From Pleurocapsales cyanobacterium LEGE 06147 (GTDB taxonomy: Bacteria > Cyanobacteriota > Cyanobacteriia > Cyanobacteriales > Xenococcaceae), in NCBI GenBank assembly GCA_015207585.1, contig JADEWQ010000002.1, forward strand, positions 1 to 64,000: a stretch of DNA of 64,000 nucleotides. Direction: 5' to 3'. This document shows, piece by piece, positions 10,675 through 29,570 of the stretch. The notes under the pieces are model-generated. The model had not been told where the DNA came from and ran no database searches. It saw only the letters and a list, made by a program, of their open reading frames with translations. Position 1 is the first letter of the stretch, and each line of letters begins with the position of its first letter. The translations under genes were made by a program, and so were the position numbers.

Positions 10675-10755
10675 AACCAAGAAATGAATTTCTTGGTTTA
10701 AAACTAAAGTCCGTTTAAACGGACTTTAGCTATAAGACAGAGAATTCATTCTCTG
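10675..10755. repeat. Three tandem palindromes between convergent genes
   Basis: Three perfect inverted repeats lie side by side: AACCAAGAAAT with its complement (10675-10698), a 26-bp palindrome containing GTCCGTTTAAACGGAC (10704-10729), and CAGAGAAT with its complement (10738-10755). The last overlaps the stop codon of the minus-strand NB-ARC gene. Similar hairpins occur near 21432 and 52310. They could act as a bidirectional terminator or be a REP-like element. Confidence 0.75.
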
Positions 10756-12113
10756 GCTATCGATAATGAAATAGCTCTGTCTTTCTCCTCTGTGAGAATA
10801 TATTTCATCACCATGGGTTGGAGTGTAAAACTAGTTTGATTTACCTCGGAAATTACTTCGATTAGCGATCGCCTTTTTAAAGATGTGAGGGTATGAAGCA
10901 ATTTTGATGAACCTACTTGAGGTTTAAAATGCTCTTGTAACTGTTTTAAGCTAATTGGTTGACGATTAATTGCTAAAGCATACATAATCTCTTGTTCCAA
11001 GTTTGATAAACGTTCAAACTGCTCTGTTAATAGTTCTTGGAAAAAACTCGGTACGATAACACCTAATTCTGTATTTGCTTCTAAAAACTTGACTACACTT
11101 CCACCAAATAGCTCTTGTATAGTTGCCGAAACTAACTTTAACGCTAAAGGATTGCCCTGGTAACGCTCGATCAGTTTTTGCCAACAATTGGAGTTAGATA
11201 AACCTTTTTCCTTTAATATTTCTTTGGCTGCATCTTCTAAACTACCTATTTGTAGTGACTCTACTTTATTGGCTCGGATAAATAACAGATCTACTGGTTC
11301 ATCCTGACTAGTCAGCAGCAAACAGCTTTGATGAGTTTCTTCTGCTACTCGTCTAATCAGTTGACTATAGTTGCTATATTTTTCTTTATAAAAACCAGCA
11401 AGATGATTAACATCTAAAAGTGCTTCTAAATTATCAAGAATTAAGAGACATCGTGAAAAACGCAAGTATTCTATTAGTAGAGAAATTTGCTCTTGAATAG
11501 TGGTTGGCAAATTGCTGTTACTAAAAAATCCGAGTAAATCTCTCAAAAGTTCTTTAAGTAGTGGAGCATGACGTAAACTGCGCCAAATAATATATTGAAA
11601 TTCCTGCTTATTTTTTTGAGCAAACTTGACTGCTAGAGCAGTTTTTCCAATTCCCCCCATGCCTAGCATGGTTATCAGACGGTATTTATCCTGAATAATT
11701 TTTTTTTCCAGTTGTGCTAGTTCTTTTTCTCTGCCATAAAAGCTGAAAATCTCCGGTGCTTCTGACCAATCTTGTTTTGATTGAGGAATTTTGTATTCCG
11801 TTTCTTCTAGCCATCGAACAATATCTCGCCAATTTTTAATAGCATTGAGATCGTGAGCTGTTAAAGTTTCGATATAGCGATACAACCCTCTAGTTAGTTC
11901 AACTCTGAGGGAGCTTAATGTCCAATGAAGATGAGCAGCTATCTCTTTGGGAGAGTAACTGCATAGCAAGCCGCGAAGGATAGCTTTTTCAACAGAAGTA
12001 AGTCTTGCCGTTTTAAGTGTAGCGATCTGCTTAGCTTCGGTCAGCTTTCCATATAATCTTTCTAAATCCCAACTAAGTCCTGCTTCTGGAAATAATCGAT
12101 CTTCAAATTTCAT
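10746..12113 (-). CDS. STAND ATPase (NB-ARC) with vMAP-like N-terminal domain
   Basis: This is a 455-residue signalling ATPase. Residues 1-110 form a helix-turn-helix-like domain (LTSVEKAILRGLLCSYSP) resembling the N-terminal domain of vWA-MoxR-associated proteins. Residues about 125-400 are an NB-ARC module with P-loop GMGGIGKT (151-158), Walker B-like CLLILDNLEALL and a GNPLALKL motif, then a winged-helix-like end. The usual C-terminal WD40 or TPR sensor is missing, and the stop codon lies inside a palindromic repeat, so the protein may be truncated. The N-terminal domain is shared with the HlyD-type gene at 19048. It is divergent from the lanthipeptide operon and may regulate it; that is inference. 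Confidence 0.8.
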   Translation of the reverse strand: MKFEDRLFPEAGLSWDLERLYGKLTEAKQIATLKTARLTSVEKAILRGLLCSYSPKEIAAHLHWTLSSLRVELTRGLYRYIETLTAHDLNAIKNWRDIVRWLEETEYKIPQSKQDWSEAPEIFSFYGREKELAQLEKKIIQDKYRLITMLGMGGIGKTALAVKFAQKNKQEFQYIIWRSLRHAPLLKELLRDLLGFFSNSNLPTTIQEQISLLIEYLRFSRCLLILDNLEALLDVNHLAGFYKEKYSNYSQLIRRVAEETHQSCLLLTSQDEPVDLLFIRANKVESLQIGSLEDAAKEILKEKGLSNSNCWQKLIERYQGNPLALKLVSATIQELFGGSVVKFLEANTELGVIVPSFFQELLTEQFERLSNLEQEIMYALAINRQPISLKQLQEHFKPQVGSSKLLHTLTSLKRRSLIEVISEVNQTSFTLQPMVMKYILTEEKDRAISLSIARE

Positions 12114-12319: not shown

Positions 12320-12359
12320 CCTAATCAAAGACCTAATGAACTGCTAATGCTCATTAGGT
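12320..12359 (+). promoter_or_regulatory. CTAAT repeat array with 9-bp inverted repeat
   Basis: CTAAT occurs at 12321, 12333 and 12343, about one helical turn apart, followed by the inverted ATTAG. ACCTAATGA (12331-12339) and TCATTAGGT (12351-12359) form a perfect 9-bp inverted repeat. The array is kept at 23421-23460 before the RTX gene. It looks like an operator or activator site. Confidence 0.55.
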
Positions 12360-12533: not shown

Positions 12534-12782
12534 ATGTCGAACGAAGATATTATCCGCGCTTGGAAAGATGAAGAGTATCGCAATAGTCTCAGTGAAGAAC
12601 AACTTAAGCTGTTGCCCGATAATCCAGCAGGGATCGCCGAGCTGTCAGATGAGGTTTTGCAAACTGTTGTAGGAGGTATGCGTCCACGCGATGGCGGTGG
12701 CGGCGGCACAGGATGCGGTACAGGAGGTAACTGCACGAAATGTGACCCTTGCAGTGGGAAGTTAATGGTTAATGCTCTTTAG
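12534..12782 (+). CDS. Class II lanthipeptide precursor (mersacidin/lichenicidin-type leader)
   Basis: The 82-residue precursor begins MSNEDIIRAWKDEEYRNSLS, the leader pattern of the mersacidin/lichenicidin family. It continues through PDNPAG to a double-glycine site VVGG at residues 45-48. The 34-residue core is glycine-rich, with four cysteines (GCGTGGNCTKCDPCSG) and several Thr/Ser available for dehydration. An AAGGAG ribosome site precedes the ATG. The LanM synthetase follows 200 bp downstream with a hairpin between them. The C39 exporter at 16883 probably removes the leader at VVGG. The mature structure is unknown. Confidence 0.9.
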   Translation: MSNEDIIRAWKDEEYRNSLSEEQLKLLPDNPAGIAELSDEVLQTVVGGMRPRDGGGGGTGCGTGGNCTKCDPCSGKLMVNAL

Positions 12783-12984: not shown

Positions 12985-15900
12985 GTGAATCGAGAATACT
13001 TTCAAGCTGCTGACTGGTATAGAGCGATCGAGTTAAAGGAAAGGATTGCATCGCTTTCAGTAGTAGCAAATCAAATTCCAAATAAGCAGGTAAACGCAGA
13101 TTTAGCTCAGAATCGTATGGAGCGATGGCGCAATCAAGATCCTTTTCCAACAGAATCTTACTTTGCCGAACGTTTGGCGATCAATGGAATCGATGAAGAG
13201 AAATTTTTATTACTTCTTGGTGAACCCATTGAAGCAGTACAAGAACGTTTCTCTGAAACTCCGACTTGGTTAAAACAAATTGCCGAGGCATTTCCAACTA
13301 CTTCTGAGCAGTTTCATCTTCCAGAAACAACACAGAATTTAGAGAATAGTTGGTTGTTATACTTAATTGAGCCGCTAATCTGCCAAGGCTTGAACCGATT
13401 GTCTGAAGGTATCGAGAATCTAAGTCAGCAGCATTCGGAACTGCCCTTTGAACCAAAGACATTTACAGAGATGCTCTTGACAAATTTGTCAGTACAATTG
13501 TACGACATTTTAGCTCGCACCCTAGTTTTAGAACTCAATGTGGCTCGCCTGCAAGGGTTGCTTACAGGTGATACACCTCAAGAGCGATTTTGCAGTTTTG
13601 TGGAGCGTTTGCGTCAGCGAGAGGTTTCCCTTTCTATTTTGCAAGAATATCCTGTTTTGGCTCGCCAAACTACTATTTGTATCAATCATTGGCTGACATT
13701 TAGTTTAGAATTTCTCCAACATTTATGTGCAGATTGGCATGAAATCCAAGCTAAATTTAGTCCCGAACATGAACCTGGTTTACTAGTGGAGTTGAAGGGT
13801 GGTGCTGGAGATAGTCATAAAAGTGGGCGTTTTGTTCTGATTGCCAGATTTAGTTCGGGTTTGCAATTGGTCTACAAACCGAGATCCCTGGCAGTAGATG
13901 TTCATTTCCAAGAACTCCTCACTTGGCTGAATGTGCGTGGCGATCACCCACCTTTCCGCATCTTAAAACTTCTAGACTGTGGCGACTACGGTTGGGTCGA
14001 GTTTGTTAAGGCTGAAAGCTGTAAAACCCCAGCAGAAATCCAGCGTTTTTACCAACGCCAAGGTGGTTACTTAGCTTTGCTCTATGCCGTGCAAGCGACT
14101 GATTTTCATTCCGAGAATTTAATTGCTGCGGGTGAACATCCAATTCTGATTGACCTGGAAGCTCTCTTCCATCCCAAAGTCGGTAAAATTGATAACTCCC
14201 AAGCCAATTTAGTTGCCAGCGACAAAATGGCTTACTCGGTTTTGGGTATCGGTTTGCTGCCGCAGCGTGTTTGGGGCAACAATCAGTTTGACGGCATCGA
14301 TATGAGCGGATTAGGAGCAAAAGAGGGGCAACTCACTCCTCATCAGATTCCTTATTGGGAAGACAGGGGGACGGATGAGATGCGACTGGCACGTAAGCGG
14401 ATGGAGATGCCACCTGACCGAAATCTACCTACTTTGAATGGCTCTAGTGTCAATCTATTTGACTATACTGAGGAAATTCTACATGGGTTTACCCATATCT
14501 ATCAGTTGCTACTTAAATATCGAGAAGATTTACTTTCAAAACAAGGACCAATCGCTGCTTTTGCCGAAGATAAAATCAGAGTTATTCTCGGTCTTACCCG
14601 TACCTATAGTTTTTTGTTAGACGAAAGTTTTCATCCCGATCTGTTGCGCGATGCTCTAGAGCGCGATCGCCACTTTGATCGACTCTGGCTTCGGATTCAG
14701 CATCAACCCTACTTAAAGCAAGCGATCGCCGCAGAGCGTGAGGATTTGTTGCGTGGGGACATTCCTTTGTTCGTGACGCGGCCAAACTCGCGAGATGTTT
14801 GGAGTAGTGATGGGCAATGTCTCACAGATTTTCTTGAGGAAGCCAGTATCGATATGGTTTACCGTCGCTTAGAGCAGTTGAGTGACTTGGATATGACACA
14901 ACAACAGTGGTTTATCCGGGCTTCTCTGGCAACGGTTCATCTGGGATTATCTAACGCTGCTTTTCCAGCCTACTCGATCACAGAGCCACAGATGATCGCA
15001 AACCGAGATCGACTATTAGCGACTGCTCGTGCCATCGGCGATCGCTTGGATTTCTTAGCAGTACGAGGTGAAAAAGATGCCTCTTGGATTGGTTTGATGT
15101 TTACAAATGAACATCAATGGTCCCTGGTGTCTTTAGGAATTGATTTGTACGAAGGGTTGCCTGGAATAATTTTATTCCTCGCTCATCTGGGTGCTGTTAC
15201 TGGAGAGGAACGTTACACTCATCTCGCACAGGCTGCGTTGATCGCGATGCGTTCTCAAGAGGCACAGTTTCGATCGGACATCAAATCTATTGGTGCGTTT
15301 GGTGGATGGGGAGGCACAATTTATACTCTGACACATTTGGGCGTATTGTGGCATCAACCAGAACTGTTAACTGAGGCCCAGAACATAGTTAACCGTCTCC
15401 CCAATCTAATTGAGCAAGATGAGGAATTCGATCTTATCAGTGGTGCGGCTGGATGTATTGCTAGCTTGCTAGGGTTATATTGCTGTCAACCTGACGATAA
15501 GATACTGAATGTGGCAATCCAATGCGGTGATCGACTGATTGCGCGTGCTGAAAAAATGCCTCGTGGCATTGGTTGGAGATGGAAAAATCAGATGTTTGAG
15601 GAAAAACCACTCACAGGTTTTTCTCATGGTGTGGCTGGGATAGCCTGGGCACTGCTGGAATTAGCATCGACGACGAGCGAGCAACGTTTCGCCACCACAG
15701 CTTTAGCCGCTCTTGAGTACGAACGCAGCCTTTTTCTCCCTGAATTAGGAAATTGGTTGGATTTACGTAATTTTACCAATACGGTCTTGGCAGAGAAAGA
15801 GGATCGAAATACTTGTATGAATGCCTGGTGTCATGGAGCACCAGGAATTGGGTTAGCTCGCCTACGCAGTCTTCCTCATCTTGATGATGCTGAAATCAGA

Positions 15901-16302
15901 TCCGAAATCGACACTGCTTTGAAAACTACTATAGCTGAAGGATTTGGTAATAATCACTCTCTGTGTCACGGTGATTTGGGCAACTTGGAATTGCTTTTGC
16001 AAGCCAGTCTCACTCTCGATCGCTCCCAGTGGCAACCCCAAGTCGAGCGCTTTGCTGCCATTATTCTCGAAAGTATTAATAAACACGGTTGGCTTTGTGG
16101 CGTTCCTTCAGGAGTGGAGACTCCTGGTTTAATGACTGGACTGGCAGGTATTGGTTATGGATTACTGCGTTTAGCAGAACCAAAGCACGTTCCTTCTGTA
16201 TTGGTGTTAGAACCTCCGAAACTAAATAGTCCAATGTCAATTAATTTGGGATTAACCTCGACCATAAGGAGACGGAGCTTGAAAATTTTAGATTTAGCTT
16301 AG
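12985..16302 (+). CDS. lanM: Type 2 lanthipeptide synthetase LanM
   Basis: This bifunctional enzyme dehydrates Ser/Thr in the precursor and adds Cys thiols to form lanthionine rings. At 1105 residues it is full length. The dehydratase domain (about 190-560) shows KPRSLAVDVHF and TDFHSENLIAAG, typical of the kinase-like LanM fold. The LanC-like cyclase (about 740-1090) has zinc ligands in NAWCHGAPG (Cys949) and SLCHGDLG (Cys994, His995), plus GFSHGVAGIAWAL. The start is GTG at 12985, giving NREYFQAADWYRA, the usual LanM N-terminus. The precursor lies immediately upstream. Confidence 0.96.
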   Translation: MNREYFQAADWYRAIELKERIASLSVVANQIPNKQVNADLAQNRMERWRNQDPFPTESYFAERLAINGIDEEKFLLLLGEPIEAVQERFSETPTWLKQIAEAFPTTSEQFHLPETTQNLENSWLLYLIEPLICQGLNRLSEGIENLSQQHSELPFEPKTFTEMLLTNLSVQLYDILARTLVLELNVARLQGLLTGDTPQERFCSFVERLRQREVSLSILQEYPVLARQTTICINHWLTFSLEFLQHLCADWHEIQAKFSPEHEPGLLVELKGGAGDSHKSGRFVLIARFSSGLQLVYKPRSLAVDVHFQELLTWLNVRGDHPPFRILKLLDCGDYGWVEFVKAESCKTPAEIQRFYQRQGGYLALLYAVQATDFHSENLIAAGEHPILIDLEALFHPKVGKIDNSQANLVASDKMAYSVLGIGLLPQRVWGNNQFDGIDMSGLGAKEGQLTPHQIPYWEDRGTDEMRLARKRMEMPPDRNLPTLNGSSVNLFDYTEEILHGFTHIYQLLLKYREDLLSKQGPIAAFAEDKIRVILGLTRTYSFLLDESFHPDLLRDALERDRHFDRLWLRIQHQPYLKQAIAAEREDLLRGDIPLFVTRPNSRDVWSSDGQCLTDFLEEASIDMVYRRLEQLSDLDMTQQQWFIRASLATVHLGLSNAAFPAYSITEPQMIANRDRLLATARAIGDRLDFLAVRGEKDASWIGLMFTNEHQWSLVSLGIDLYEGLPGIILFLAHLGAVTGEERYTHLAQAALIAMRSQEAQFRSDIKSIGAFGGWGGTIYTLTHLGVLWHQPELLTEAQNIVNRLPNLIEQDEEFDLISGAAGCIASLLGLYCCQPDDKILNVAIQCGDRLIARAEKMPRGIGWRWKNQMFEEKPLTGFSHGVAGIAWALLELASTTSEQRFATTALAALEYERSLFLPELGNWLDLRNFTNTVLAEKEDRNTCMNAWCHGAPGIGLARLRSLPHLDDAEIRSEIDTALKTTIAEGFGNNHSLCHGDLGNLELLLQASLTLDRSQWQPQVERFAAIILESINKHGWLCGVPSGVETPGLMTGLAGIGYGLLRLAEPKHVPSVLVLEPPKLNSPMSINLGLTSTIRRRSLKILDLA

Positions 16303-16882: not shown

Positions 16883-19030
16883 ATGAAATACCAGCTTGTT
16901 CGACAGCACAGCGAAGAAGACTGCGGTGCTGCTTGTCTGGCTTCCATTACCAAATATTACGGTAAAATCTTCACCATTAACCGCATTAGAGAAACAGTAG
17001 GAACCGGACAGCAAGGCACTACCTTATTGGGATTAAAACAGGGAGCCAATAGACTTGGTTTTAATGCCAGGGGGGTAAAAGTCTCTATTGAGGTTATTAA
17101 TAAACAAGCCATACCTCTGCCAGCGATTATTCACTGGAAAGGCTATCATTGGGTAGTTTTATACGGCAAGCGGGGCAGGAAATATGTCGTTGCCGATCCT
17201 GCTATTGGCATTCGCTATCTAGATGCCGAGTCGTTGGAGGAAGCCTGGACGGACAGAGTAATGCTACTGGTAGAACCAGATCCAGTCCGCTTCTTGGCTC
17301 AAGAGGATGAAAAAAATAAGATCGGGGGATTATCTCGTTTCCTCAAGCGCGTATTACCCTATCGCAATCAAATCGCCCAAACCTTTTTGCTCAATGCTTT
17401 TATCGGTTTGCTTTCTCTGGCTTCTCCGTTTCTGTTGCAAATCTTGACAGATGATGTCTTGATTCGAGGCGATACCCAGCTTCTAAGCAGAGTTGCTATT
17501 GCTGTAGTCGTCATGCACTTGGTCAGTAGCAGTCTCCGACTAGCCCAGTCTAACTTAGTTGTCCATTTTTCTCAGCGTCTGCAACTGGGGCTAATCTTAG
17601 AATTTGGTCGTCAAATTTTACGCTTGCCTCTTAGTTATTATGAAACCCGTCGCAGTGGGGAAATTGTCAGCCGTTTAGAGGATATTCAAGAGATTAATCA
17701 GTTGGTTGCTCAAGTGGTTGTGAGCTTACCCAGCCAATTTTTTACTGCTCTAGTCTCTCTAGGCTTCATGTTGTTCTATAGCGTGCAACTTACGATAGTC
17801 GCTAGTGTTATTGCTATTTTCATGACTCTCTCAACTGTAGTGTTTTTGCCTACCCTCCAGCAAAAGATTCGCAATCTCCTAGTTTTATCGGCAGAAAATC
17901 AAGGTGTTTTAGTAGAAACCTTTAAAGGTGCCATTACTGTAAAAACTACTACTGCTGCTCCCCAATTCTGGGAAGAATTCCAACATCGCTATAGTCGTCT
18001 GGCTAACTTCAGCTTTCGCACTATTCAAATCGGCTTCGTTAATAATATTTTCTCTAATTTAGTTTCTAATAGTGGCAGTATCGTCTTACTCTGGTTTGGC
18101 AGTAATTTGGTGATTAATCAAGAATTAACCATCGGTATGCTGCTGGCATTTAACAGCATGAATGGCAACTTTACTTCTTTCATCGATACAGTAATAGGCT
18201 TTGTCGATGAATTTACCCGTACTAGAACTGCTACTCAACGCCTCACTGAAGTGATTGACGCTACCCCAGAAACTCCACCTAACAGTCAAAAGCCTTGGGT
18301 ATCGCTTCCTGACGATGTCAATGTTATTTGTAGCAATCTCAACTTTCACCATCCTGGTAGAGTTGACCTACTACAAGACTTTTCCCTGACTATTCCTGGG
18401 GGAAAAGTTATTGCCTTAATTGGTAAATCTGGCTGTGGCAAAAGTACGTTAGCCAAAATTATTGCTGGGTTATACTCTCCTGATTCTGGCAACATTCGCT
18501 TCGGTATCTACAATCAGCAAGATTTATCCCTCGATTGTCTGCGCCAACAAGTAGTACTGGTTCCTCAAGATGCTCATTTTTGGAGTAGATCCATTGTTGA
18601 AAACTTTCGCTTGGGCAATCCCCACTCTACTTTTGAGCAGATTGTTAGAGCTTGCCAGATTACAGGCGCAGATGAATTTATCTCGAAACTGCCGGACAAA
18701 TATGAAACCGTTTTAGGAGAATTTGGCTCTAACCTCTCTGGAGGACAAAGACAGAGATTAGCCTTAGCTAGAGCCATTATTAACGCTCCGCCCGTACTGA
18801 TCTTAGATGAGTCTACTGGTGCTCTCGATCCCGTAAGTGAAACTGAAGTGTTAGATAGCCTACTCGCCTATCGTCAGGGGAAAACAACGATTATGATTAG
18901 TCATCGTCCTCCAGTAATTGAGCGTGCGGAGCGGCTCGTACTGCTAGAGGAGGGACGTTTGCAACTTCAAGGTTCTCTCAAGGATTTACGTTACCAAACT
19001 GGAGAGCATTTGAAATTTTTGATGGTGTAA
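16883..19030 (+). CDS. C39-peptidase ABC exporter (bacteriocin/RiPP type)
   Basis: This 715-residue transporter cleaves double-glycine leaders and exports the peptide. The C39 peptidase (1-135) has an intact triad: Cys14 in EEDCGAACLA, His89 in GYHWVVLYG and Asp105 in VADPAIG, with Gln8 for the oxyanion hole. Membrane helices span about 155-440. The nucleotide-binding domain (465-715) has GKSGCGKST, LSGGQRQRLALARA and VLILDESTGALD. It sits between two RiPP units whose precursors both end their leaders in GG, so it can plausibly serve both. The HlyD-type gene begins 17 bp downstream. Confidence 0.95.
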   Translation: MKYQLVRQHSEEDCGAACLASITKYYGKIFTINRIRETVGTGQQGTTLLGLKQGANRLGFNARGVKVSIEVINKQAIPLPAIIHWKGYHWVVLYGKRGRKYVVADPAIGIRYLDAESLEEAWTDRVMLLVEPDPVRFLAQEDEKNKIGGLSRFLKRVLPYRNQIAQTFLLNAFIGLLSLASPFLLQILTDDVLIRGDTQLLSRVAIAVVVMHLVSSSLRLAQSNLVVHFSQRLQLGLILEFGRQILRLPLSYYETRRSGEIVSRLEDIQEINQLVAQVVVSLPSQFFTALVSLGFMLFYSVQLTIVASVIAIFMTLSTVVFLPTLQQKIRNLLVLSAENQGVLVETFKGAITVKTTTAAPQFWEEFQHRYSRLANFSFRTIQIGFVNNIFSNLVSNSGSIVLLWFGSNLVINQELTIGMLLAFNSMNGNFTSFIDTVIGFVDEFTRTRTATQRLTEVIDATPETPPNSQKPWVSLPDDVNVICSNLNFHHPGRVDLLQDFSLTIPGGKVIALIGKSGCGKSTLAKIIAGLYSPDSGNIRFGIYNQQDLSLDCLRQQVVLVPQDAHFWSRSIVENFRLGNPHSTFEQIVRACQITGADEFISKLPDKYETVLGEFGSNLSGGQRQRLALARAIINAPPVLILDESTGALDPVSETEVLDSLLAYRQGKTTIMISHRPPVIERAERLVLLEEGRLQLQGSLKDLRYQTGEHLKFLMV

Positions 19031-19047
19031 TAATTCAAGTGGTTATC

Positions 19048-21180
19048 ATGCTTGAGGATAAACTGTTTTGGAAAGCTGCCGATAATTGGGATTTAAAAAG
19101 ACTATATGAAAAAATTGAATCTACTAAACAACACCAGTCTGGTGAAAAGCAACTTACCTCTTTAGAAAAAACTGTCTTGCGGGGATTGCTGTGCGATTAT
19201 AGTCCCGAACAGATAGCCAATAATCTTACAGGAGAATCTTATGGATTAATAGTTAACTTGACTTGGAGACTACACAAATGCATTCAAACTATTACTAATA
19301 GAAAACCTCAAAACATTGAGAGTTATAGAGATATTCCTAATTGGCTCGAAGCAGCAGGATATAAAAAAAGAAACAAGAAACAATCTACCTCTTCCTTATC
19401 TAAAAGGAAAAAAAATGTTGCTTCTTCCTCAACTATTGCTCATTCCCTAGAACGCTACACGGAACACCTAGTACAAGGCGGGAGAAATACTTTTACTTCT
19501 TTAACAGAAGATATTTGCAGGGAAAATGTACCAACCGATGTATATCCAAGACTCCCTGTCTCAGACAATCAACCCCAACAACAGGCTATACCAGAACAAG
19601 CAGGCTCCAATTTAGTAGAGGAACGGCAACAGTCAGAGCAATCGGCATTAGCTGTTAGCCAGCCTCATCAAAACCCATCAAATATTGTTTCATCTCAACA
19701 GAATTTTTTACCCTCAGTTGACGAAAATGATTTTTTGCCGCCAATTAGTCGTTGGACTAATCTTGGTGGATTATTTATCGTTGGTTCTGTAGCAATAGCG
19801 ATCGCCCTAGCGGCTTTTACTCCCTACAATGTCACTGTCCAAGCACGGGCAAAAGTCCGTCCCTGGGGTGAATTGCGAGTTATAGAAGCCCAAACAGAAG
19901 GTGTGGTTGTGGATATCCGCGCTAAAGAAAATCAAGCTGTTAGCAAGGGAGAGATCGTTGCCATCCTCAATGATTCTCGTTTCCAAACCCGAAAAAACCA
20001 ATTGCAGAGCAACATACAGCAGGCAAAATTACAACTATTGCAAATTAACGCTCAGATCGAAGCTCAGAAAAGGCAGATTTTAGCAGAAACCGACCGAATA
20101 GAACTCGCTGTTGCTATTTCCGAGCAAGAATTGAGTCGTAGTCGTCGGGAACATCAGGATAGAAAAATTACTACTACTGCCCAAGTCGATGAAGCAGCAG
20201 CTAACTTGAGGATAGCCCAAGAAGAATTGCACCAAGCAGAGGCAGAGTTGCAATCGGCAAAAGCCAACTTAAAATCGACTCAAGCAGCCTTAGATTCAGC
20301 AAAGTCCCGACAGGAGCGATATCAAACCATCGCAGAATCTGGTGCTCTTTCTACGAATCAATTGGAAGAAGCTCAACTAGCAGTCGTTCAACAACAAGAA
20401 GCAGTGGCAGCCCAACAAGCCACAGTCGAACATCATCAAAAAGGCATAGAAAGGCAACGTCAAGCAGTAGAAGCTGCTAGAGCTAGATTAGAAAATACAA
20501 GCGCAGCACTCAATCCCATTGATGCTGAAGTGGCGATCGCTCAAGAAAATATTGCTAGAGAACGAGCCACTGGTAAAGCTACCCTTGCTAGTTTACACCG
20601 AGACAAGGAAGCTTTAATCCAGCAACGTATTGAAATTGAAAAGCAAATAGAGTCAGATAATAGCGAACTTCAACAAGTAGAAAAAGAAATAGCTCAAACT
20701 GCGATCGCCGCACCTGCAGACGGTGTTCTTTTTCAGCTTAACCTGCGTAACCCAGGTCAGACGGTTAGAATGGGAGATAAAATCGCTCAGATTGCCCCCA
20801 GTCAAAATGTACTGGCGATCGAGGCTTTAGTTGCCGCTCAAGATATTAGCAGAGTCAAGACAGGACAACCAGCACAGGTAAGGGTATCTGCCTGTCCTTA
20901 TCCAGACTACGGTACTCTCAAGGGTTCGGTCACTAATATTTCTCCAGATGTTATTTCCTCTCAAAATAACCATAGTTCGGCAAATTCTTCCAGCCAGAGT
21001 ACTAACCCCAGCAACAACTTCTATGCAGTAACAATCGAGCCAGAAAGTCTTTCTTTAAGTCAAGGTCAGAAAAAATGTCTCGTCCAATTGGGTATGGAAG
21101 GCAGGGCAGATATTATTTCTAGAGAAGAAACTATTTTACAATTTTTACTTAGAAAAGCAAGACTTATTGCCGACTTATGA
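19048..21180 (+). CDS. HlyD-type adaptor with vMAP-like N-terminal domain
   Basis: The 710-residue protein joins two unlike parts. Residues 1-105 (LEDKLFWKAADNWDLKRLYE, LTSLEKTVLRGLLCDYSP, RDIPNWLEAAGYK) are homologous to the N-terminus of the STAND ATPase at 10746, at roughly 45% identity by eye. After a Gln/Ser-rich linker comes one membrane helix (about 239-258), a long periplasmic coiled coil (about 320-560) and a lipoyl/barrel region (DGVLFQLNLRNPGQTVRMG). That is a membrane-fusion protein of a type I exporter. The N-terminal domain would face the cytoplasm. I chose the ATG at 19048 by alignment with the ATPase; a GTG lies nine bases earlier. It probably works with the C39 exporter just upstream. 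Confidence 0.88.
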   Translation: MLEDKLFWKAADNWDLKRLYEKIESTKQHQSGEKQLTSLEKTVLRGLLCDYSPEQIANNLTGESYGLIVNLTWRLHKCIQTITNRKPQNIESYRDIPNWLEAAGYKKRNKKQSTSSLSKRKKNVASSSTIAHSLERYTEHLVQGGRNTFTSLTEDICRENVPTDVYPRLPVSDNQPQQQAIPEQAGSNLVEERQQSEQSALAVSQPHQNPSNIVSSQQNFLPSVDENDFLPPISRWTNLGGLFIVGSVAIAIALAAFTPYNVTVQARAKVRPWGELRVIEAQTEGVVVDIRAKENQAVSKGEIVAILNDSRFQTRKNQLQSNIQQAKLQLLQINAQIEAQKRQILAETDRIELAVAISEQELSRSRREHQDRKITTTAQVDEAAANLRIAQEELHQAEAELQSAKANLKSTQAALDSAKSRQERYQTIAESGALSTNQLEEAQLAVVQQQEAVAAQQATVEHHQKGIERQRQAVEAARARLENTSAALNPIDAEVAIAQENIARERATGKATLASLHRDKEALIQQRIEIEKQIESDNSELQQVEKEIAQTAIAAPADGVLFQLNLRNPGQTVRMGDKIAQIAPSQNVLAIEALVAAQDISRVKTGQPAQVRVSACPYPDYGTLKGSVTNISPDVISSQNNHSSANSSSQSTNPSNNFYAVTIEPESLSLSQGQKKCLVQLGMEGRADIISREETILQFLLRKARLIADL

Positions 21181-22017: not shown

Positions 22018-22212
22018 ATGATGCATCATCCCTTTGAACTAGAACTTTCTGAACTAGAAACTATTAATTTTGAGCTGGAAGAACTTACTGATGAAGAGGC
22101 AAAAAAAGTTGCTGGCGGACGTACTTTCTCTACCTTAGCAATTGGGGAAGAAGGAGGAGGTAGGATTACCACTATGGCAATTGGGGAAGAAGGAGGTGAC
22201 TATCAATATTAG
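22018..22212 (+). CDS. Graspetide precursor with two TTxxxxEE-type modules
   Basis: This 64-residue peptide has an acidic leader ending in a double glycine (EEAKKVAGG, cleavage after residue 34). The core holds two repeats, FSTLAIGEEGG and ITTMAIGEEGG. Each contains the (S/T)TxxxxEE pattern of plesiocin-type (group 2) graspetides, where Thr/Ser hydroxyls are joined to Glu side chains by ester bonds. The ATP-grasp ligase is 40 bp downstream. AAGGAG lies at 22008-22013; spacing slightly favours the second Met at 22021. The product would be two linked bicyclic hairpins. Confidence 0.88.
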   Translation: MMHHPFELELSELETINFELEELTDEEAKKVAGGRTFSTLAIGEEGGGRITTMAIGEEGGDYQY

Positions 22213-22252
22213 CGATTAGCGGTGAAGCCGTTTACTAGCTAAGCTTTCGGGA

Positions 22253-23170
22253 ATGTCTGAACAAATAAACATTTTAATACTGGGCAATGCTTTAGATGCC
22301 CACGCCACCCATCTGCACGACGCTCTCATGCAAGCAGGTGCCATAGCTGATTATTTAGATACTCGTAAGTTTCCTACTCAAATAGGAATTTCTTGGGAAC
22401 CTAACAACCAGATGGGATGGCTGAACTTATCTAGCGAACGTCACTGGCAATTCCAAGACATTAAAAGTGTTTTTTGGCGCAGTTTTCATGGTGTTGGCAT
22501 TCCCTCCTTGAAAGATTCTCATCAGCAGCAAGTAGCATTTAACGATGCCATGAGTGCAGTTAGAATGTTGATGCAAACTGGTCCCGCCCGTTGGGTTAAT
22601 TCCTGGCAGGCATATCAGTTTCATAAAGAGAAGCCCCTGCAACTGCGTCAAGTTCAGCTTTTAGGAGTCAAAATTCCGCCAACCTTAATCAGCAACGATC
22701 CAGAGCAAATAATTAGATTTGCTCAATCTCATCAACAAGTTATCTCTAAACCAGTTTATGGCGGTGCTCATGCCAGAATCTTGACTGATTCTCATTTAGA
22801 GCCTAAACGACTAAAATTAGCCCTGAGCATTGCTCCCATCACTCTCCAACAATACATCCCTGGCACTAATATTCGCAGCTACGTAATTGCTGATTCAGTT
22901 TATGCTGCTGAAATTCGCAGTAACTCTCTTGACTTTCGCGAAGATTCAGAGACTCAGTTGCTGCCAGTTGACTTACCAGCAGTAATTCAAAGACAGTGTC
23001 TGGCTATTGCCCAGGCACTACATCTAGAATGGACGGCCATTGATTGGCGTAAGACTCCGGTGGGGGAATACGTTTTTCTAGAAGCAAATCCTAGTCCGAT
23101 GTTTATCCACTTTGAGCAGCAAACTGGTTTCCCAATTACAGAAAAATTAGTCAAACTCTTAATGGCTTAG
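22253..23170 (+). CDS. ATP-grasp ligase for graspetide ester formation
   Basis: The 305-residue enzyme is of the RimK-like MvdC/MvdD group that makes side-chain esters or amides in graspetides. Features seen are KPVYGGAHARIL (ATP-binding region), LQQYIPGTNIRSYVIAD, and a C-terminal FLEANPSPMFIHFEQ with the metal-binding Glu and Asn. Its substrate should be the precursor directly upstream. The last 80 codons are duplicated as a relic at 16627. Glutathione synthetase-like activity is less likely given the precursor gene beside it. Confidence 0.92.
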   Translation: MSEQINILILGNALDAHATHLHDALMQAGAIADYLDTRKFPTQIGISWEPNNQMGWLNLSSERHWQFQDIKSVFWRSFHGVGIPSLKDSHQQQVAFNDAMSAVRMLMQTGPARWVNSWQAYQFHKEKPLQLRQVQLLGVKIPPTLISNDPEQIIRFAQSHQQVISKPVYGGAHARILTDSHLEPKRLKLALSIAPITLQQYIPGTNIRSYVIADSVYAAEIRSNSLDFREDSETQLLPVDLPAVIQRQCLAIAQALHLEWTAIDWRKTPVGEYVFLEANPSPMFIHFEQQTGFPITEKLVKLLMA

Positions 23171-23272: not shown

Positions 23273-23500
23273 GTGCATCCTTATCTTTTTAGGCAAGATA
23301 AAAAAATTTTGGGGAAGTATCTTAATTAAGCGATCGCATTTCTAGAAAACCTGGCGATCGCTTTTTGCTTGATGTAATTGCAATCAATTTTTTGAAGTAC
23401 TTGAGATAGACAGCAAAAAACCTAATCAAAGACCTAATGAACTGCTAATGCCCATTAGGTGAATTCAGGTTGTGTTGCTCGTTATTGTGAATGCAGTTTA
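23272..23500 (+). repeat. Leader repeat, copy 2 (upstream of RTX gene)
   Basis: From about 23315 this matches 12215-12400 before the lanthipeptide precursor, and its first 90 bases match 21690-21785. It carries the CTAAT array (23421, 23433, 23443, inverted repeat 23432-23460 with one mismatch). It accounts for most of the 370-bp gap. Confidence 0.85.
23328..23366 (+). terminator. Perfect HIP1-stem hairpin with T-run
   Basis: AAGCGATCGC (23328-23337) pairs perfectly with GCGATCGCTT (23354-23363), and the T-run extends to 23366. It is a canonical intrinsic-terminator shape built from two HIP1 octamers. Confidence 0.6.
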
Positions 23501-23543: not shown

Positions 23544-24317
23544 ATGGTAACTAAATATGGTACTTTTGCGTCCGATAACATAATGGGAACCAATTTTGCG
23601 GACACCCTTTATGGGTATCCCAAAGGTGATGACCCCAATACTGGCTATGACGGCAATGACACTCTAAAAGGCTTGGATGGGAATGATTCCCTATATGGCG
23701 GCTCAAACAATGACTACCTCTATGGGGGTAATCACGATGACTACCTTAATGGGGGTAATGACAATGATTATCTCTATGGGGAATCAGGCAATGACTATCT
23801 AGACGGCTGGAAAGGGAATGACTACCTCAATGGGGGCATTGGTAACGACACTCTGCTGGGCTACGACGGCAATGACACCTTAGACGGCTGGTATGGGGAT
23901 GACAAGCTCTATGGAGAAGCTGGCAACGACACTCTGTTAGGCTACGACGGCAATGACTCTCTCTATGGCGGTTTAGGCAATGACTCCCTCAATGGAGAAG
24001 CTGGCAATGACTACCTCAACGGTGGCGGTGGCTATGATACTTTGGTAGGTGGTACTGGAAAAGATACGTTTGTGGTCTCTGATTATGATTACACGGGAGC
24101 TGGCTACGCCATCATTAATGACTTCAAATATCAGGAAGGCTATCAGGAAGGCGATAAAGTCGATCTGACCCTGAGTTACGATCAATACACCTATAAAACT
24201 GGTAGTTTGGCTGGTTCTACTGCTTTGGACACCTTGATCTACAAAAAGGACGATTTGCTTGCTGTCGTTGCGGATAAGACTGGTAACGATTTCATCCCCA
24301 AATATGATGTCATTTAA
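23544..24317 (+). CDS. RTX calcium-binding repeat protein, likely secreted
   Basis: The 257-residue protein consists mainly of RTX nonapeptide-type repeats (about residues 25-175), e.g. GNDTLLGYDGNDTLDG and AGNDYLNGGGGYDTLVGG, which fold as a calcium-bound beta-roll. A C-terminal region (GGTGKDTFVVSDYDY onward) follows. That end is where type I secretion signals lie, and there is no N-terminal signal peptide. AAAGGAAA precedes the ATG. It shares its upstream leader with the lanthipeptide precursor and heads the set glycosyltransferase, parvulin, ABC exporter and HlyD, which should export it. No enzymatic domain is visible. Confidence 0.88.
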   Translation: MVTKYGTFASDNIMGTNFADTLYGYPKGDDPNTGYDGNDTLKGLDGNDSLYGGSNNDYLYGGNHDDYLNGGNDNDYLYGESGNDYLDGWKGNDYLNGGIGNDTLLGYDGNDTLDGWYGDDKLYGEAGNDTLLGYDGNDSLYGGLGNDSLNGEAGNDYLNGGGGYDTLVGGTGKDTFVVSDYDYTGAGYAIINDFKYQEGYQEGDKVDLTLSYDQYTYKTGSLAGSTALDTLIYKKDDLLAVVADKTGNDFIPKYDVI

Positions 24318-26612: not shown

Positions 26613-29570
26613 ATGACTTATACAACATCTTCCATTCAAGAATTTCTTGCTGGCGTTCCCCTCTTGAATCAGTTGCCAACTGATACTGTAGCCGAATTAG
26701 CAGAACGCTTGCAGCCACTGCGCTATCGCCTGGGCGAAATCATTCTGATGCGTGAGAGAATCCCCACACACCTAGTCATTCTCTATCGCGGACAAGCTCG
26801 CCTGCTAGGTTACGATCCCCGGACGAAGAAGCAGGTGACCCTGCAAAAACTAGAACCAGGTGCTATTTTAGGTTGGGTTAGCCTAGTGCGGGGAGTTTAC
26901 AGCGAAACGGTGCTTGCTTCTACAGAAGTTGAAGGTCTAGCATTACCAGCGACCGAGTTTTTTACCTTGCTCGACAAACACCCTACCCTAGCAGCGGTTT
27001 TTCAAGAGTGCTGTGCTCCGATTGAAATTTTTGACTTACTCGGTGCTGAACTGGAGCGCAGAGCAGATGGAGCGGCTCCTCTCAAGAAACTGGCTCTTCA
27101 GGCTTGGCGAGAAGCAGTCGTTTACCACTTCCCCCCAACCGATGCAGGGAAGTTAGATCCCAATCGAATTTGGTTCGTCAGTGGAGGCTCAGTCCCGAAT
27201 CTGCCAGTAGGCAGCCGCCTCAGTTGGGAAAGCGAAGGGCTAACCCTCAAGAAATTAGGTTCAGATTCTGTACGCTTAGTGGGACTTCCGAAATCAATTC
27301 TGTCTGGATCGATAACGACTCTAGGGAAACAAGATGACGATCTTCCTTCCGGAACTTCTGCTCGATCGGAAATTCCCTATGCCAGAGAATATCTACCATC
27401 GCCCCAGTTCTTAATTCCTGCTCGTCAAGGTCAGCACCGGAGCCAAAAATATCCTTACATTCGCGGCAGAGGTCCCTTAAAGGGAACTTTGGCTTGCTTC
27501 GAGATGCTCAGTCAAGCTCTCGGTGTTTCCTTTCATCGAGAGGTGATTCGCAGAGTCTTAGTCAACCAGCAGCAAACCGGAAGGTTTTCGCTTCGATTTG
27601 CTGCTGTCGTAGCCGATTTGATGGGATTGCAAGCTCAGCTACTGAAGATCGGTGCTTCTAGTCTCCCTCAGCTGCCAACGCCAGCTCTAATCCACTGGGA
27701 AGATAGCTTCGCCGTCCTCTACGAAGTCAGTCACAAAGAAGTGGTGCTAGCCGCGCCAGAATCGGGCATCAAATGCCTCAAACTCAGTACTTTTATCGAT
27801 ATCTGGGGTTCTTCCGGTCAAATTCTCCTCCTCAAAGTAGGAGCGAGTACCCCCAAGAAAAAGTTTGGACTTTCTTGGTTTGTCCCAGCTCTGTGGAGCT
27901 ACCGTCGGGTACTGCTGGAAGTCTTGCTTGCTTCCTTTTTTGTCCAACTCTTTGGCTTGGCCAATCCCTTGATGACTCAGGTAATCATCGACAAGGTGAT
28001 TGGTGGCAACAGTCTAGATACCCTGCACGTCTTGGGTATCTTACTGATAGTCGTAGCGATGTTTGAGGCTCTTTTGACCAGTTTGCGCACCTATCTTTTT
28101 TCTGATACCACCAACCGTATTGACCTGTCTCTTGCAACTGAGGCGATCGACCACCTGCTGCGCTTGCCGATGTGCTACTTCGGACGCCGCACCGTCGGAG
28201 AGTTAGCAACACGGGTCAATGAACTGGAGAAAATTCGCCAATTCCTCACTGGCACCGCTCTGACTGTGGTCTTAGATGCGGTCTTTTCCGTCATTTACAT
28301 TACGGTTATGGCGATTTACAGTCCCCAGCTCACCCTCGTGGCTTTAGCTATAGTCCCTCTGTTCGTCTTGCTGACGCTAGTATTTTCTCCGATTTTGCGG
28401 CGTCTGTTAAGGGCTAAGGCCGAGCGCAACGCCGAAACTCATTCTTATCTGGTCGAGGTGCTCAATGGCATTGAAACCGTTAAATCCCAAAACATCGAGC
28501 TGCGATCGCGCCTGTCTTGGCAAGAGCGCTACGCTCGCTATGTCTCAGACGGTTTTAAAACGGTTAAGCTCTCTACAACTGTCGGTTCTCTCAGCGATTT
28601 TCTCAACAAACTCTCTAGTTTATTGGTGCTCTGGGTTGGGGCTTATCTCGTCCTCAAGCATCAATTAACCCTAGGGCAATTAATCGCCTTTCGCATTATT
28701 GCTGGCTACGTTACCAGTCCGCTGCTGCGGCTGTCCCAAATATGGCAAAACTTCCAGGAAACTGCTCTCTCTATCGAGCGCCTGAGCGATATTCTCAATC
28801 ATCCTCAAGAATCACCTAGAGAACAGCATCACAACATCATTATGCCAGTGATTCAAGGAGCTGTGACCTATGAACAGATTTGCTTCCGCTTTCTTCCAGC
28901 AGGTCCTTTGCAACTGAATCAGGTTAACCTCGACATTTCCGCTGGTTCTTTCGTCGGCATTGTCGGGCAAAGTGGCTCGGGCAAAAGCACCTTGACGAAG
29001 CTGTTACCCCGCTTCTACGAACCCAATAGTGGTCGAATTCTCATCGATAACTACGACATTAGTAAAGTCGAACTTTATTCTCTGCGGCGTCAGCTTGGCA
29101 TTGTTCCTCAGAATCCGCTCTTGTTTGAGGGAACGATCTACGAAAATATTGCCCTCAATCACCCAGAAGCCACCAATGAAGAAATTATCGCCGCCGCCAA
29201 AATTGCTGTAGCCCACGATTTTATTATCGACTTACCCAATGGTTATAACACTCAGGTAGGAGAGAGGGGATCGGCTTTGTCTGGAGGACAGCGGCAGCGA
29301 ATTGCGATCGCTCGTACTGTCTTGCAAAATCCACGACTGCTGATCCTAGATGAAGCGACCAGTGCTCTGGACTATGAAACTGAGCAGCAGTTGTGTCGAA
29401 ATCTTGCTGAAGCGTTTTCCGGTCGCACGGTCTTTTTCATTACCCACCGAATGAGCACGATTAAGGACGCCGATCTGATTTTGATGATGTCTCAAGGAAA
29501 AGTGGTGGAAATGGGAACCCATGCAGAATTAATGGCTCTGAAAGGTCGTTATTACTGTCTTTATCACTAA
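26613..29570 (+). CDS. Type I secretion ABC exporter with cNMP and C39-like domains
   Basis: This is a 985-residue HlyB-type exporter. A cyclic-nucleotide-binding-like domain is N-terminal (about 10-150). A C39-like domain follows (about 275-410) in which the catalytic Cys is replaced (GPLKGTLACFEML) and the His is Phe (HWEDSFAVLYE), so it binds rather than cleaves. Membrane helices lie at about 430-700. The ATPase domain has GQSGSGKST, LSGGQRQRIAIAR and LLILDEATSALD. This pattern fits RTX export without leader cleavage, matching the RTX gene upstream. The cNMP domain may gate export by a cyclic nucleotide; this is inference from the family. Confidence 0.93.
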   Translation: MTYTTSSIQEFLAGVPLLNQLPTDTVAELAERLQPLRYRLGEIILMRERIPTHLVILYRGQARLLGYDPRTKKQVTLQKLEPGAILGWVSLVRGVYSETVLASTEVEGLALPATEFFTLLDKHPTLAAVFQECCAPIEIFDLLGAELERRADGAAPLKKLALQAWREAVVYHFPPTDAGKLDPNRIWFVSGGSVPNLPVGSRLSWESEGLTLKKLGSDSVRLVGLPKSILSGSITTLGKQDDDLPSGTSARSEIPYAREYLPSPQFLIPARQGQHRSQKYPYIRGRGPLKGTLACFEMLSQALGVSFHREVIRRVLVNQQQTGRFSLRFAAVVADLMGLQAQLLKIGASSLPQLPTPALIHWEDSFAVLYEVSHKEVVLAAPESGIKCLKLSTFIDIWGSSGQILLLKVGASTPKKKFGLSWFVPALWSYRRVLLEVLLASFFVQLFGLANPLMTQVIIDKVIGGNSLDTLHVLGILLIVVAMFEALLTSLRTYLFSDTTNRIDLSLATEAIDHLLRLPMCYFGRRTVGELATRVNELEKIRQFLTGTALTVVLDAVFSVIYITVMAIYSPQLTLVALAIVPLFVLLTLVFSPILRRLLRAKAERNAETHSYLVEVLNGIETVKSQNIELRSRLSWQERYARYVSDGFKTVKLSTTVGSLSDFLNKLSSLLVLWVGAYLVLKHQLTLGQLIAFRIIAGYVTSPLLRLSQIWQNFQETALSIERLSDILNHPQESPREQHHNIIMPVIQGAVTYEQICFRFLPAGPLQLNQVNLDISAGSFVGIVGQSGSGKSTLTKLLPRFYEPNSGRILIDNYDISKVELYSLRRQLGIVPQNPLLFEGTIYENIALNHPEATNEEIIAAAKIAVAHDFIIDLPNGYNTQVGERGSALSGGQRQRIAIARTVLQNPRLLILDEATSALDYETEQQLCRNLAEAFSGRTVFFITHRMSTIKDADLILMMSQGKVVEMGTHAELMALKGRYYCLYH

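Follow-up and report, generated by a model that had tools for sequence, protein, structure and literature searches.

Organisation of the Locus

The window, i.e., the whole stretch of 64,000 nucleotides that was analysed, contains an island of genes for secreted peptides (Table 1). It comprises a lanthipeptide cluster, after which come genes for a GG-leader peptide, an ATP-grasp ligase and, further on, an RTX-repeat protein. The lanthipeptide cluster belongs to class II, possessing a LanM synthetase, a mersacidin-type precursor and a C39 transporter. Positions 22018–23170 encode the GG-leader peptide with a repeated (T)xAIGEEGG core, followed by the ATP-grasp ligase, and form a graspetide-like cluster inside the lanthipeptide island. 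The gene for the NB-ARC protein is oriented divergently from lanA.

The adaptor encoded next to the C39-ABC exporter belongs to the HlyD/MFP group (PF13437, TIGR01843), and its HlyD body is 51–62% identical to the standard full-length adaptors of the host's taxonomic family (hereinafter, the family). The open reading frame occupies positions 19039–21180 of the forward strand and encodes 713 amino acids when read from the GTG at 19039 or 710 from the ATG at 19048. The ATG (MLED...) is the homologous start, and the GTG lying further 5′ is an alternative possible start. The first-pass description of the surroundings was confirmed; they comprise a C39-ABC exporter, HlyD_3 in the adaptor, NB-ARC, LanM and a leader of the mersacidin family.

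Table 1. Features of the peptide island and the evidence for their assignment.
Feature	Positions	Strand	Evidence and remarks
NTD–NB-ARC–winged-helix STAND protein, candidate transcription factor	10746..12113	−	455 aa; NB-ARC E = 2.5e-10; AlphaFold2 model and fold matches to CED-4, Apaf-1 and MalT
N-terminal HTH-type domain, NB-ARC copy	11772..12113	−	BLASTP, genome search, residue comparison
Element copy 1, ACCTAATGAACTGCTAATGCTCATTAGGT, candidate operator	12331..12359	+	between lanA and the divergent NB-ARC gene
lanA precursor, mersacidin/lichenicidin-type leader, proposed target	12534..12782	+	TIGR03898, E = 1e-19
LanM class II lanthipeptide synthetase	12985..16302	+	TIGR03897
C39-peptidase ABC exporter	16883..19030	+	directly 5′ of the HlyD gene; PF03412, PF00664, PF00005
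HlyD-family adaptor with N-terminal HTH-type domain	19048..21180	+	HlyD_3 E = 4e-19; TIGR01843; N-terminal domain by BLASTP
N-terminal domain, HlyD copy	19048..19380	+	HTH core at about residues 33–82; recognition helix changed (W73, H76, C78)
Single TM helix of the adaptor (GGLFIVGSVAIAIALAAF...)	19759..19818	+	from the sequence; follows an unconserved linker; same layout in relatives
Element copy 2, ACCTAATGAACTGCTAATGCCCATTAGGT	23432..23460	+	before the RTX gene
RTX-repeat protein, proposed target of element copy 2	23544..24317	+	PF00353

Homology and Nature of the Shared N-Terminal Domain

According to the first-pass annotation, the HlyD adaptor and the NB-ARC ATPase align at their N-termini. 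BLASTP of the full proteins bears this out: 131 aligned residues are 42% identical (E = 2e-23). Every motif quoted in that annotation for the two N-termini is present. The match is limited to the N-termini, with its boundary at the start of NB-ARC in the STAND protein and at the start of the linker in the adaptor. Residues 1–110 of the two proteins are homologous. Searching the whole genome with the domain gave these two copies (E = 2e-74 and 9e-22) and no third one below E = 0.4. The domain is common to the adaptor and the ATPase, as had been proposed, and its cytoplasmic placement, also proposed, agrees with the topology from which we infer it.

The shared domain (NTD) is a helix-turn-helix (HTH) of the LuxR/sigma-region-4 type. 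Neither window copy has a strong Pfam match. Among 70 homologues, the sole recurrent Pfam matches were GerE (PF00196, 8 members) and Sigma70_r4_2 (PF08281, 15 members), both at E ≤ 0.01, and a stand-alone member (L116) exceeds the GerE cut-off with 27.6 vs. 23.5 bits. The HlyD copy itself gave neither of these two matches, and its HTH membership follows from homology. The closest PDB sequence matches of the domain are LuxR-type response regulators and one sigma factor, and its AlphaFold2 model is all-helical (pLDDT 82). A Foldseek search with the isolated domain returned LuxR-type and other HTH structures, all above E = 0.3, which were not taken as proof. The next-best matches in the genomes of the family, mostly frames of 214–266 residues, aligned over the HTH core alone.

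A profile–profile comparison (hhalign) with the HTH of cyanobacterial STAND proteins, which we take to be of the VMAP-M9 type, reached 62% probability with 16% identity over 57 columns of the HTH core. The identification of the domain as VMAP was rejected on this ground, and the earlier label "vMAP-type" gives way to the LuxR/GerE and sigma region 4 relationship indicated by the Pfam and PDB matches. Judging from the profiles, the NTD is perhaps distantly related to the VMAP-type HTH of other cyanobacterial STAND proteins.

The domain occurs in 210 of the 391 sampled genomes of the order. It is found alone or joined to NB-ARC (with or without WD40), NACHT-NCH2, AAA_35, WD40 alone, DUF433 or unknown modules. 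Stand-alone HTH proteins of about 170 residues are widespread (L116, L117, L118, L101, L129) and carry a conserved, beta-rich C-terminal motif (VxIVxI..N..TIDIxxxLxxP). An apparent NTD protein of 24,210 residues (G089, L087) was discarded as an artefact of a masked run of N.

Fusions of the Domain with HlyD

Among the sampled genomes, NTD-HlyD fusions were found in nine, all from the family of the window's host, and in the order-wide HlyD search adaptors elsewhere were about 500 residues long. The NTD is not a general feature of C39-associated HlyD adaptors, the norm being proteins of about 505 residues without the domain. In the tree of the domain, all sequences from HlyD proteins group in a single clade (support 100/99). 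Most of the fusion genes directly follow a C39-ABC gene, and GG-leader precursors are often encoded close by. A chance distribution over unrelated proteins had been named in the first-pass annotation as a possible objection. The domain is indeed widespread, but its HlyD partners make up one monophyletic, mostly C39-linked group, which is not what chance would give.

Two relatives, G010 and G011, encode a single protein of 936–940 residues comprising the domain, a complete NB-ARC, the winged helix, a TM helix and HlyD, with HlyD in the place of the STAND sensor. The link between the switch and the exporter, suggested earlier from the window alone, is thus real. Both genomes also have a separate NTD-NB-ARC gene, which, as in the window, is placed at the opposite end of the lanthipeptide island. 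The fused NB-ARC branches as the sister of the family's stand-alone clade, outside it, in a tree with an uncertain root. This position favours an old fusion followed by loss of NB-ARC over recent gene conversion, and a recent gain of NB-ARC in G010 and G011 by recombination with the neighbouring gene was rejected for the same reason. The presence of NTD-HlyD and NTD-NB-ARC in the same genome is weakly correlated (p = 0.07), and two genomes with NTD-HlyD have no NTD-NB-ARC (G002, 96% complete; G022, 91%). The stretches examined at six NTD-HlyD loci also lack the promoter element described below. A STAND partner is therefore not obligatory.

Other HlyD adaptors have a CheY-type receiver domain in the same N-terminal position (PF00072, E = 6e-23 to 5e-30). 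They occur in the family, in several cases beside C39-ABC genes and in some directly 3′ of them, and once in another family (G360). The phospho-acceptor motif is visible in these proteins (L212:2036–4021, L213:6994–8940, L214:3567–5399, L216:6813–8732, L218:7289–9229), and by their sequence the adaptors look phospho-regulated. Together, the HTH and receiver fusions mean that cytoplasmic signalling domains reached cyanobacterial exporter adaptors at least twice. A literature search found no paper that describes a HlyD protein with a fused receiver domain, NB-ARC or HTH.

A Conserved Promoter Element

Alignment of the region between the NB-ARC gene and lanA in the window with those of G010 and G011 revealed a strongly conserved block, ACCTAATGAAnTGCTAATGnnnATTAGGT. 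The element is 29 bp long; two of its CTAATG boxes are direct repeats with 11 bp between them, and a third box is inverted. The window contains two copies, while shuffled sequences gave an expectation of 0. With up to two mismatches, the element was found in 9 of the 27 genomes of the family (reversed control, 0), and its presence is associated with that of NTD-NB-ARC (Fisher p = 3e-4) and of NTD-HlyD (p = 1e-3). Copies are found immediately 5′ of NTD-NB-ARC genes, both in several genera and in a second family (f15), with a divergent RTX gene on the other side. Of 40 exact gapped matches across the order, 19 are within 2 kb of an NTD gene, compared to a chance of about 0.1% each. The reversed pattern is about as common order-wide, so the location of the element, not its number, is the evidence. 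The strict element was not found adjoining the NTD-NB-ARC genes of G014 and G001.

A related form with 12 bp spacing occurs about 80 bp upstream of genes in which the NTD is joined to an unknown partner, so that what all these loci share is the NTD. In family f2 (L108, L109, L112, L122, L123), the 12-bp form is found near NTD-NB-ARC genes and upstream of genes for DUF5648 and AraC-type regulators.

Within the family, the element precedes lanA genes, GG-leader peptides, an RTX gene, C39-exporter operons and APH-HopA1 pairs, the latter encoding enzymes of the class V lanthipeptide type. It is located between an NTD-NB-ARC gene and a divergent APH and HopA1-like operon in G023 (L076:2–4062) and upstream of an APH and HopA1-like operon in G014 (L262:7643–10098). 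In the same two genomes, it also lies upstream of a small HTH gene and an exporter with cNMP-binding, C39 and ABC parts (L263:4419–7755, L264:7117–10575). A similar long ABC exporter is encoded in the window at 26613–29570 without the element, and no promoter-proximal copy was found before the window's own C39-ABC gene. At 12 of 31 NTD-NB-ARC loci, but at 2 of 28 other NTD loci, there is an RTX gene no more than 2.5 kb away (p = 0.006); many of these loci belong to related genera, and genes of the RTX type are abundant.

The host genome has a third copy of the element (C30:35693; L261:6694–8288), upstream of a gene for a 477-residue protein with a hydrophobic N-terminal part and no Pfam match, followed by a gene for a 134-residue orphan. 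The gene for the 477-residue protein may be a further regulon member.

The NB-ARC Protein as a Candidate Transcription Factor

The STAND protein consists of the NTD, the nucleotide-binding domain and the winged-helix domain, without sensor repeats (AlphaFold2 pLDDT 88). It belongs to the STAND NB-ARC class according to its PF00931 match, its GMGGIGKT and LLILD motifs and the fold matches of the model, which Foldseek lists as plant NLRs, CED-4 and Apaf-1, with MalT (8bob) at rank 46. The layout of MalT and the LAL factors is not reproduced: the HTH is N-terminal, and the protein stops after the winged helix with no TPR sensor.

Since the element adjoins NB-ARC/HTH genes and faces genes for secreted peptides, the protein can be read as a transcription factor; it is probably a MalT-like, sensorless STAND factor for peptide clusters. 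The first-pass annotation had proposed sensing or gating of export by the ATPase; the DNA element favours a transcription factor instead, and, on the sequence evidence, the ATPase is most likely the regulator of the peptide cluster. In G020 (L265:3600–4400), an NTD-NB-ARC gene beside lanA and LanM has undergone an internal deletion that left the start of the NTD and the end of the winged helix; the element and the lanA genes persist.

Proposed Role of the HlyD Copy

The scaffold of the domain is kept in the HlyD copies (F7, A10, W14, L19, Y20, L36, L44, G46, L48, I56, A57, L100, G104, Y105), whereas the recognition helix is altered in all of them. The other members conserve K/R73 (most of them), Y76 (60 of 60 sequences) and R77. 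All ten HlyD copies have W at position 73 and have lost Y76, and the mean net charge in this comparison is −1.5, against about +2 elsewhere. The altered helix and the charge reversal argue against the reading of DNA and for a protein-binding face. The HlyD copy is probably a docking module coupling the exporter and the regulator, a role for which the shared fold, the common island and the one-protein fusion are circumstantial evidence. HlyD forms hexamers around the transporter (PMC9751043). E. coli HlyD that lacks its first 45 residues no longer recruits TolC or activates the HlyB ATPase (Balakrishnan 2001, cited in PMC4446572). The state of the exporter could therefore be sensed or controlled from the position of the domain.

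The following model appears to us the best available, with a probability of roughly 45%. The NB-ARC protein would be a STAND transcription factor of the CED-4/MalT kind that has no sensor repeats. Through its N-terminal HTH it would read the 29-bp element, and it would control lanA and the RTX gene and, in relatives, also the exporter operon. The HTH would have arrived on the HlyD adaptor once, in the ancestor of the family; the simplest route is that an entire HTH-NB-ARC protein became fused to HlyD. This fusion would have been kept in G010 and G011, and the NB-ARC part later lost in lineages like that of the window. The HlyD copy would have retained the fold with its DNA-reading face replaced. 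On its cytoplasmic side, the base of the exporter would present as many as six copies, which may dock the STAND regulator or its sigma/RNA polymerase partner. Docking would couple the assembly or occupancy of the exporter to expression of the cargo. In this model, the homology, the HTH class, the monophyly, the NB-ARC-HlyD fusion and the element with its neighbourhood are computed results, and binding of the element by the STAND protein, activation, docking and the direction of signalling are inferred.

The location of the HlyD part at the usual place of the STAND sensor leads to a bolder and rather doubtful version, in which the adaptor carries the STAND transcription factor that serves its cargo genes, or docks it through the HTH fold they share. 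The exporter itself would then act as sensor for a CED-4-like switch, and export would license the synthesis of the peptide.

The near-complete genomes with NTD-HlyD and no NTD-NB-ARC make a role internal to the exporter a serious rival, if on balance an unlikely one. The domain would then be a structural or allosteric module of the exporter, replacing the N-terminal cytoplasmic helix of classical HlyD in its role and serving transporter coupling or the handling of cargo or leader with no STAND partner. The E. coli deletion phenotype and the usual position of the gene directly 3′ of C39-ABC agree with this, but closely related C39-type HlyDs lack the domain, and the complete NB-ARC fusion and the shared element tie NTD-HlyD to STAND.

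It is improbable that NTD-HlyD is a membrane-tethered DNA-binding regulator similar to CadC or ToxR, which would bind the same elements and report the exporter state directly. The HTH fold is retained, the element is associated with NTD-HlyD in the family and in G003 it lies upstream of the operon encoding NTD-HlyD, with no NTD-NB-ARC found in this 81% complete genome. Against this stand the six NTD-HlyD loci lacking the element and the recognition helix, whose residues conserved elsewhere are lost and whose charge is reversed.

The fused intermediates and the tree topology would also suit a functionless remnant of an ancestral NTD-NB-ARC-HlyD fusion. This is very unlikely given the scaffold residues conserved across the HlyD clade, where mean identity is 40% in the NTD vs. 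27% (noise level) in the linker. In the fused pair, dN/dS is 0.12 for the NTD vs. 0.43 for the linker; the domain there is under purifying selection.

The vMAP/conflict-type signalling complex of the first-pass annotation, with the ATPase gating export, is scarcely credible: the STAND architecture and the STAND-HlyD fusion would fit it, but the seven window proteins scanned with Pfam include no vWA or MoxR domain, as a partner in a VMAP/vWA-MoxR ternary system, the relation to the VMAP-type HTH is weak, PADLOC gave marginal matches only, on which membership in a defence system was rejected, and the DNA element and its target set fit transcription control.

Comparison with Known Systems

Producers of toxic or costly secreted peptides must match expression to export, which in known cases is achieved by sensor kinases or secreted anti-activators. 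NB-ARC switches are best known from apoptosis and plant immunity. Here, in the living relatives G010 and G011, such a switch is physically joined to the adaptor of a type I exporter, and the HTH-HlyD fusion suggests a connection between export and gene expression. Since a specific promoter element has been identified, the proposed circuit is open to direct testing, and the NB-ARC protein and the element are a candidate regulator and a candidate binding site for silent cyanobacterial lanthipeptide clusters.

The NB-ARC protein shares with MalT and the LuxR-type STAND (LAL) factors the STAND NTPase, the winged helix and an HTH of the LuxR/GerE type. Several short direct and inverted boxes at target promoters, candidate ones here, are a further likeness. 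It differs in the N-terminal instead of C-terminal HTH, the lack of a TPR sensor, the box sequence and the putative status of promoter binding. With CED-4, Apaf-1 and NLR switches it has the NBD-HD-WHD fold in common, and CED-4 is also devoid of a sensor; the N-terminal HTH in place of CARD, CC or TIR and the peptide-biosynthesis context are different.

The adaptor resembles the HlyD/CvaA-type adaptors of C39 (bacteriocin) exporters in HlyD_3, the single TM helix, the gene position after C39-ABC and GG-leader cargo nearby, and differs in the additional 110-residue HTH domain, or HTH and NB-ARC, on the cytoplasmic side.

A survey of cyanobacteria describes Sigma70_r4_2 proteins (SigR and relatives) with NB-ARC, WD40 and AAA_35 partners (PMC11119718), the same partners as those of the NTD. 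The survey gives domain lists only, under sigma-like names, with no operator or link to peptide clusters, and no HlyD partner is mentioned in its main text. In the effector-associated (homotypic adaptor) domains of STAND conflict systems (PMC10907252, PMC7159879), one small domain is likewise present on a STAND protein and on a neighbouring non-STAND protein; in the system considered here, the domain has an HTH fold and is accompanied by a promoter element, and the partner is an exporter instead of an effector nuclease or protease.
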